Of a stretch of 38,615 nt of DNA, positions 27,008-28,958 are shown one piece after another. The notes beneath the pieces were generated by a model. It made no database searches, was not told where the DNA came from, and was given only the letters and a program-made list of their open reading frames with translations. The position numbers and the translations under genes are program-made. The DNA comes from Tepidibacillus decaturensis (lineage in GTDB: Bacteria > Bacillota > Bacilli > Tepidibacillales > Tepidibacillaceae). How positions within the stretch are numbered: position 1 is the first letter of the stretch; each line of letters begins with the position of its first letter. The stretch is taken from positions 2,817,280 to 2,855,894 of the forward strand of contig NZ_LSKU01000001.1 in assembly GCF_001561915.1 (NCBI RefSeq), given 5' to 3'.

Positions 27008-27403
27008 ATGGCTACAAGAAAAACCACAACTCGTACAAAAAGGCGCGATCGTAAAAATATTGAGTCAGGAGTAGCACATATTAAGTCTACTTTTAACAAC
27101 ACCATTGTTACCATCACTGATACACATGGTAATGCAATTTCTTGGAGTAGTGCAGGTGCACTTGGGTTTAAAGGTTCAAGAAAAAGTACCCCTTTTGCTG
27201 CACAAATGGCTGCTGAAGCAGCTGCCAAAACAGCAATGGAGCATGGCATGAAAACTGTTGAAGTATTAGTTAAAGGTCCTGGTGCTGGACGTGAGGCAGC
27301 TATTCGCTCCTTACAAGCAGCTGGACTAGAGGTTAATATGATTAAAGATGTCACGCCGATACCTCATAACGGTTGCCGTCCACCAAAACGTCGTCGTGTC
27401 TAG
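27008..27403 (+). CDS. rpsK: 30S ribosomal protein S11
   Basis: S11, 131 residues, sits on the platform near the E site and the mRNA exit. It contains [20 protein letters not shown] and the C-terminal [20 protein letters not shown] signature. The SD AAGGAGGG precedes the ATG. It is followed by an unusually long 212-base gap before rpoA. Confidence 0.98.
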
Positions 27404-27435
27404 TGATATTTTTACCAATAGATGTATAGATTGCC

Positions 27436-27464
27436 TGAACATGTGAATAATAGAATGGTAAGAT
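27436..27464 (+). promoter_or_regulatory. Possible extended -10 promoter upstream of rpoA
   Basis: TGAACA (27436-27441), 17 bases, TAAGAT (27459-27464), with TGG directly before the -10. Each box matches the sigma-A consensus at four of six positions, helped by the extended -10. The start would be near 27471. It would add rpoA-rplQ transcription to that from upstream. Confidence 0.35.
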
Positions 27465-27563
27465 AGGGTAAGTATGTACTCTCTCAACTAGATCTACTTA
27501 TTTTAGAACATGGTTAGGTTAATAAACGGTACCACCGATTGTTCTTTTTTGGTACCTTACCCT
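27465..27563 (+). promoter_or_regulatory. Competing inverted repeats in the rpsK-rpoA gap
   Basis: AGGGTAAG (27465-27472) is a perfect complement of CTTACCCT (27556-27563). GGTACC occurs at 27528-27533 and 27551-27556 and is self-complementary. A different fold pairs AGAACA (27505-27510) with TGTTCT (27540-27545) and TGGT with ACCA, and ends in a T run at 27543-27550. The two folds share bases, so they exclude each other, as in an attenuator. The rest of the 212-base gap shows only the rpoA SD. Confidence 0.5.
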
Positions 27564-27615
27564 CGAATATCGTGGTTGCCATTGAAATGGACGTTTTGAA
27601 GGAGGGTTTAGATAA

Positions 27616-28560
27616 ATGATCGAAATCGAAAAGCCTAGAATTGAAGTCGTAGAAATTAATTCAGAATCTACTTACGGGAAAATTGTAGTAGAGCCTTTAG
27701 AACGAGGATATGGTACAACACTTGGTAATTCTCTAAGACGAATTCTTCTTTCTTCTTTGCCAGGTGCTGCTGTAACCTCTATTCAAATCGATGGTGTTCT
27801 TCATGAATTTTCTACAATTCCTGGTGTCGTTGAAGATACATCAGAGATTATATTAAACCTTAAGAAGCTTTCCTTAAAGATTCACTCTGATGAAGAGAAA
27901 GTTCTTGAAATTGATGTTGATGGTGGTGGGGATATCACTGCTGCTGATATTCGTGCAGATAGTGATGTTGAGATTCTAAACCCTGATCTTCATATTGCTA
28001 CGGTCGATGAAAATTCAAGATTTCATATGAGAATTCATGCGAACCGTGGTCGTGGTTATGTTCCAGCGGACAGGAATAAAAGGGAAGATCAACCGATTGG
28101 AGTTATTCCAGTCGATTCCATTTATACTCCGATTACAAGGGTTAATTATACAGTAGATAACACTCGTGTAGGTCAGGTTACAAACTATGATAAGTTAACT
28201 TTAGAAGTATGGACTGATGGCAGTATTCATCCTGAAGAGGCTGTTAGTTTAGGAGCAAAGATCTTAACAGAACATCTCAATTTATTCGTTGGCTTAACTG
28301 AAGAAGCAAAAGAAGCGGAAATTATGGTGGAAAAAGAAGAAGACCAAAAAGAAAAGGTTCTTGAGATGACCATTGAAGAATTGGATCTTTCTGTTCGTTC
28401 CTATAACTGCTTGAAACGTGCTGGTATCAATACCGTGCAGGAATTAACTACGAAAACAGAAGAAGATATGATGAAGGTCCGTAATCTTGGGCGCAAATCA
28501 CTGGAAGAAGTTCAACAAAAGTTGCTTGAACTTGGACTTGAACTTAAAAAAGAAGAGTAG
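27616..28560 (+). CDS. rpoA: DNA-directed RNA polymerase subunit alpha
   Basis: Alpha subunit, 314 residues, is the scaffold for core assembly and the contact point for UP elements and activators. The N-terminal dimerisation domain (about 1-230) contains [20 protein letters not shown]. An acidic linker ([10 protein letters not shown]) leads to the C-terminal DNA-binding domain, about 246-314, with [17 protein letters not shown] and [22 protein letters not shown] precedes the ATG. It is co-directional with rpsK and rplQ and may have extra control in the gap upstream. Confidence 0.98.
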
Positions 28561-28592: not shown

Positions 28593-28958
28593 ATGGCATA
28601 CGCAAAACTTGGTCGTAATTCAGCAGCACGTAAGGCACTGTTCCGTGATCTCGTGACTGATTTAATTATTAATGAACGTATTGAAACCACTGAATCAAAG
28701 GCGAAGGAAGTTCGTTCAATTGCTGAAAAATTGATTACTCTTGCAAAACGTGGCGATTTACATGCAAGACGTCAAGTTGCAGAATATGTTCGAAAAGAAG
28801 TAGCTGATCGTGAAAGTGGTCAGGATGCAGTTCAAAAACTATTTAGTGAAATTGCTCCTCGATTTGCTGAACGTCAAGGGGGATATACACGTATTTTAAA
28901 GATTGGGCCTCGCCGCGGGGACGCAGCACCTATGGTATATTTAGAATTAGTAGAATAA
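28593..28958 (+). CDS. rplQ: 50S ribosomal protein L17
   Basis: L17, 121 residues, is a surface 50S protein. It begins [23 protein letters not shown] and contains the family block [17 protein letters not shown] and the C-terminal [19 protein letters not shown]. The SD AAAGGAGGG precedes the ATG. It is the last gene of the S10-spc-alpha run and is followed by a strong terminator. Confidence 0.98.

Follow-up and report, generated by a model that had tools for sequence, protein, structure and literature searches.

A predicted sigma-F-class promoter ahead of rpoA–rplQ in the long rpsK–rpoA gap of Tepidibacillus decaturensis, probably the scar of a lost rpsD

Layout of the gap between rpsK and rpoA

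The window, that is, the whole stretch of 38,615 nucleotides analysed here, contains an S10-spc-alpha run in which rpsK is followed by rpoA and then by rplQ. According to the ORF coordinates, 212 bases separate rpsK from rpoA, as against about 55 bases or less in the remaining gaps of the run, so that the gap is indeed unusually long, as the initial annotation had remarked. The repeats named in it were also found. AGGGTAAG and CTTACCCT (the long stem) lie 83 bases apart, two GGTACC sites occupy 27528–27533 and 27551–27556, and AGAACA and TGTTCT (the inner stem) are both in place; the run of six T said to follow TGTTCT consists of five more T, and six is reached by counting the last T of TGTTCT itself. 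As a measure of chance, inverted pairs of at least 6 nt number fifteen within 261 nt. The features of the gap and its flanking genes are collected in Table 1.

Table 1. Features in and around the rpsK–rpoA gap (positions counted from the first base of the window)
Feature	Position	Strand	Basis or remark
rpsK (S11), gene before the gap	27008–27403	+	ORF, PPKRRRV end
CAAAACGTC, last rpsK codons, exact complement of GACGTTTTG	27384–27392	+	9-nt inverted pair
GTATA, predicted -35 box, sigma-F-type	27424–27428	+	conserved two-box motif; same layout before spoIIR
GTGAATAATA, predicted -10 box, 14 bases past the -35 box	27443–27452	+	22.9 bits, window family left out
ATGGTAAGATAG, putative decayed start of lost rpsD (ATGGCAAGATAT where rpsD is kept)	27455–27466	+	alignment with operon rpsD starts
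Predicted transcription start of the rpoA–rplQ transcript	27458–27461	+	inferred from the -10 position
Long stem, 5′ arm AGGGTAAG	27465–27472	+	kept in 4/4 family genomes
Inner stem, 5′ arm AGAACA	27505–27510	+	one compensatory change, in G002
Inner stem, 3′ arm TGTTCT	27540–27545	+	T run after TGTTCT not conserved
Long stem, 3′ arm CTTACCCT	27556–27563	+	overlaps ACCCTC, alternative partner of the rpoA ribosome site
GACGTTTTG, rpoA-side strand of the 9-nt pair	27590–27598	+	exact complement of CAAAACGTC
GACGTTTTGAAGGAGGG, conserved element with the rpoA ribosome-binding site	27590–27606	+	Bacilli comparison
GACGUUUU, rpoA-side segment facing the rpsK PPKRR codons in the proposed pairing
rpoA (RNA polymerase alpha)	27616–28560	+	ORF
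rplQ (L17), second gene of the predicted short transcript	28593–28958	+	ORF

The two-box element and its probable sigma factor

The regions downstream of rpsK were compared in about 190 Bacilli genomes and 80 named contigs. Recurring near the 5′ end of the gap are GTWTA and TGTSNATAATGG at an almost constant spacing. The consensus boxes are GTWTA and GNNNANANT, about 14–16 bases apart, and the window fits them with GTATA-N14-GTGAATAATA. When the site was scored with matrices trained without the family being scored (cut-off at least 6 bits), that of the window outscored every other on either strand of the 38.6 kb (22.9 bits; the next reached 14.5), and its score was attained by none of 2000 shuffles. 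A pattern search for GACGTTTTGAAGGAGG across the genomes, with two mismatches allowed, gave no matches above the control level. A sigma-A promoter was also considered and rejected, the consensus scan of the + strand of the gap having found none. The initial annotation had placed a possible extended -10 promoter ahead of the folds. A promoter is predicted at the gap start, but the nearest string of the extended -10 kind, TGGTAAGAT at 27456–27464, has not been conserved in the relatives and looks like the remnant of an rpsD start, and it was discarded.

The distribution of the element follows that of sigG, which was counted as present at E < 1e-90; in the remaining genomes the hits, of 1e-35 to 1e-43, are due to other sigma factors. 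With sigG as the sole forespore sigma marker, and in related rather than independent genomes, the two-box site was found under leave-one-family-out scoring in 138 of 149 Bacilli genomes with sigG and in none of the 41 that lack it. Counted by family, the figures are 49/50 and 0/11. Two families, whose names are inferred from named loci, contain both states. In the Paenibacillaceae-like f4 the site occurs in 9/9 sigG-bearing and 0/5 sigG-lacking genomes; in the Planococcaceae-like f3, where the version of the spore formers is weaker, it passes in 8/17 and 0/14, respectively. The sigG-bearing genomes under the cut-off are two of f25 and nine Planococcaceae, and most of the f3 gaps among them read, by eye, G[AT]TT[AG]-N15-GNNNANANTG. 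Losses of sigG within Paenibacillaceae and Planococcaceae go together with absence of the element, and the window genome possesses both sigG and spoIIR. As a separate observation, one genome of the f3 genus g7 (L258 of G047) has a diverged sigG (E 3e-97) and a gap without the promoter, and sigG is missing from two of its genus mates; sporulation may be degenerating in this genus.

The same element is met upstream of spoIIR. The matrix built from rpoA gaps matches the spoIIR upstream regions of 21/25 genomes, or 22/23 (median 18.4 bits) with the window family left out, while elsewhere it matches gpr in 4/25, SASP genes in 3/29 and shuffles in about 3%. Promoters of sigG, itself a forespore-controlled gene, score low with this matrix (5/24), and in about half of the genomes they have the same layout, GCATAAA-N11-AGGAGATACTG. 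A matrix made from spoIIR only, seeded solely from GYWTA, the consensus -35 pattern of sigma-F, separates the rpoA gaps of genomes with sigG (median 13.4 bits) from those of genomes without it (median -2.5 bits; p ~1e-17). The window family reaches no more than about 5 bits with it, and the box spacing in that family is 14, not 15.

It has been reported that SpoIIR is made under sigma-F and that the sigma-F promoter of csfB carries GTATA (PMC4383634). The sigma-G promoter class was tried and set aside, since the SASP genes do not match the rpoA-gap matrix. Because it matches spoIIR promoters and rarely those of SASP genes, the two-box element is assigned to the sigma-F class as a predicted promoter; sigma-F rather than sigma-G is most likely its user, and sigma-G may use it as well. 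The likeness to the forespore promoters of spoIIR and csfB in Bacillus lies in the GTWTA box, the interval of 14–15 bases, the GNNNANANT box and the match of spoIIR to the same matrix. The difference is that the element of the window lies within a ribosomal operon, ahead of the genes for a housekeeping subunit of RNA polymerase and for a ribosomal protein.

Origin of the gap and proposed function

Seven families carry an rpsD of the zinc-binding type (CRLCRREG) after rpsK, and there the two-box element overlaps the rpsD start: the sequence runs GTATAAT...AGGAGGTGTCAATACTAGAATGGCAAGATATAC, and the -10 box falls in the interval from the ribosome site to the ATG. At 27442–27466 the window reads TGTGAATAATAGAATGGTAAGATAG, i.e., the -10 box and then what appears to be a decayed rpsD start, M-V-R-stop. 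The sole rpsD of the window genome above the family cut-off is 1.1 Mb away and belongs to the type without zinc cysteines, and no element-like sequence was found upstream of it. The simplest history of the gap would be that the rpsD of the operon was lost and the promoter stayed. G016, which has both rpsD types (C42:17129-17725 and C19:5454-6071), one in the ribosomal operon and one elsewhere, appears to represent a transition from one arrangement to the other. In the families with rpsD (loci L407, L409 and L410), about 13 bases, more than usual, separate the ribosome site from the rpsD ATG, and the -10 box lies between them; since a sigma-F transcript would begin there at or after the ATG, no normal rpsD translation would be expected from it.

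In E. coli, S4 controls the alpha operon. The resemblance consists in the neighbouring positions of rpsD and rpoA and in control at the level of the operon, whereas the gap of the window has no rpsD, no recognised S4 site and no Rfam match.

Taken as a whole, the gap is probably the scar of a lost rpsD of the zinc type, holding a predicted sigma-F-class promoter for rpoA–rplQ. The zinc-type gene would have disappeared from between rpsK and rpoA, and the remaining gap would have stayed long because the forespore promoter sits in it. During growth, rpoA and rplQ would be transcribed by read-through from the ribosomal operon. In early sporulation, RNA polymerase with sigma-F would start a second transcript near 27460 containing only rpoA and rplQ, by which alpha and L17 would be supplied to the forespore. 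That the promoter is used, where its transcript starts and what the forespore gains are inferred from the sequence comparison. A study of B. subtilis placed the sole start of the rpoA unit upstream of infA, which counts against a promoter in the gap (PMC4495994). In the searchable literature no paper ties rpoA or rplQ to sigma-F; older papers or SubtiWiki may already record the promoter. Strong read-through from the ribosomal operon would mask its output, and such a promoter would therefore be easily overlooked in expression studies. If the proposal is true, nearly all Bacilli that form spores would include alpha and L17 in their early forespore programme, a point relevant to the renewal of the transcription machinery in the forespore, and a sporulation promoter would have outlived the gene whose start overlapped it.

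Other readings of the gap

The best surviving alternative is translational coupling: the 3′ end of rpsK would pair with GACGUUUUGAAGGAGGG and keep the rpoA ribosome site hidden as long as translation of rpsK is incomplete, and a short transcript would be free of this lock. The two 9-nt strands are exactly complementary, CCNCC can extend the pairing of CAAAACGTC and GACGTTTTG onto the ribosome site, and a pairing probability of 0.99 is predicted in the read-through RNA. GACGTTTTGAAGGAGGG is present across Bacilli where rpoA directly follows rpsK, including members of Planococcaceae and Paenibacillaceae that do not sporulate, and staphylococcal and lactic genomes have an altered form of it; it was not found where rpsD stands between rpsK and rpoA. 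Out of 61 windows, the one at the C-terminal end of rpsK shows the highest complementarity in 164/181 genomes, which are related to one another, and with the ribosome-site core left out it is still the best in 62 of 119 distinct pairs. However, synonymous changes in rpsK are mostly uncompensated (25 of 27 C-A mismatches at one position), and both strands are conserved for other reasons. Coupling is given somewhat less than an even chance, and the pairing is a plausible candidate coupling device, secondary to the promoter. It resembles known intercistronic coupling in that the end of the upstream gene can pair with the downstream ribosome site, and differs in that the covariation is weak and the pairing is a predicted one.

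Coupling could also operate jointly with the sigma-F-class promoter. A start near 27460 lies past rpsK, so the rpsK strand would be missing from the short transcript. It is then conceivable, though rather doubtful, that one scar serves two modes of rpoA expression: a read-through mRNA in which the 3′ end of rpsK would lock the rpoA ribosome site until S11 is translated, and a transcript made under sigma-F, from a promoter inherited from the start region of the lost rpsD, on which alpha would be translated freely in the forespore.

A translational switch in the window's family is judged unlikely. The family comparison comprised the window genome and G002, G003 and G004, with gap identities of 78–83%. 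In these four genomes CUUACCCUC has two partners, AGGGUAAG or GAGGGU of the rpoA ribosome site. ACCCUC would mask this site, and AGGGUAAG, if a factor were to favour the long stem, would free it by pairing with those bases instead. Such competing pairings would affect translation, as read from four genomes with almost no covariation. All three segments are kept in the four genomes, and the masked state is favoured in the predicted short transcript (0.73); on the other side, the long stem has a probability of only about 0.02, no factor is known, no Rfam model matches and the reading rests on these four genomes. The ACCCTC/GAGGGT pairing never varies among them, so its conservation says nothing for or against the switch.

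It is improbable that the two boxes belong to an RNA motif, or are no more than the remains of a decaying rpsD, rather than a promoter. Short stems can be drawn by eye round the boxes in several families and the -10 box overlaps the old rpsD start, but the same element stands before spoIIR, its loss follows that of sigG, the -35 box lies outside rpsD, and standalone rpsD genes lack the element. The near-fixed spacing, the link with sigG and the spoIIR match together fit a DNA element better than an RNA motif.

Least probable by far is the transcription attenuator or antiterminator of rpoA–rplQ put forward in the initial annotation, with two mutually exclusive folds and a T run: the named repeats exist, but AGAACA/TGTTCT lies within the loop of AGGGTAAG/CTTACCCT and shares no bases with it, so that the two stems are nested and compatible and do not compete, while the terminator scan found none within the gap, the fold energy is unremarkable (z = -1.3 against shuffles), and no such stems were seen in the gaps of other families. 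The fold that does conflict is the GGTACC pairing, which crosses the inner stem and shares one base (27556) with the long stem. Among the four family genomes the long stem is paired in 100% of cells, one position varying as G-U, A-U and G-C, and the inner stem in 92%, with a single compensatory change. For the GGTACC pairing the figure is 82%, with zero compensatory changes; neither this pairing nor the T run is kept, and the GGTACC hairpin was rejected although the energy model favours it. What stands of the earlier account is that the gap is special, is relevant to rpoA and rplQ and has a promoter predicted at its start; the type of promoter and the mechanism appear to be other than claimed. 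With the leader RNAs of ribosomal protein genes in Firmicutes the gap has in common a structured region ahead of a gene pair of a ribosomal operon, whereas it has no Rfam match and its structure is not common to families. Part of the folded structure may be genuine in the window's family, though it makes no attenuator.

Two further arrangements were observed in other families. In two Paenibacillaceae gaps (L213 of G314, a genome without sigG, and L037) the stem GTAGTATA/TATACTAC is kept and the -10 box is lost; since the stem outlasts the box, it seems to act apart from the promoter. In five Bacillaceae-like loci (L047, L054, L186, L195 and L196) the gap opens with TTTCTGTATA, which can pair with a TATACAGAAA further downstream, so that the promoter boxes would be enclosed between them.
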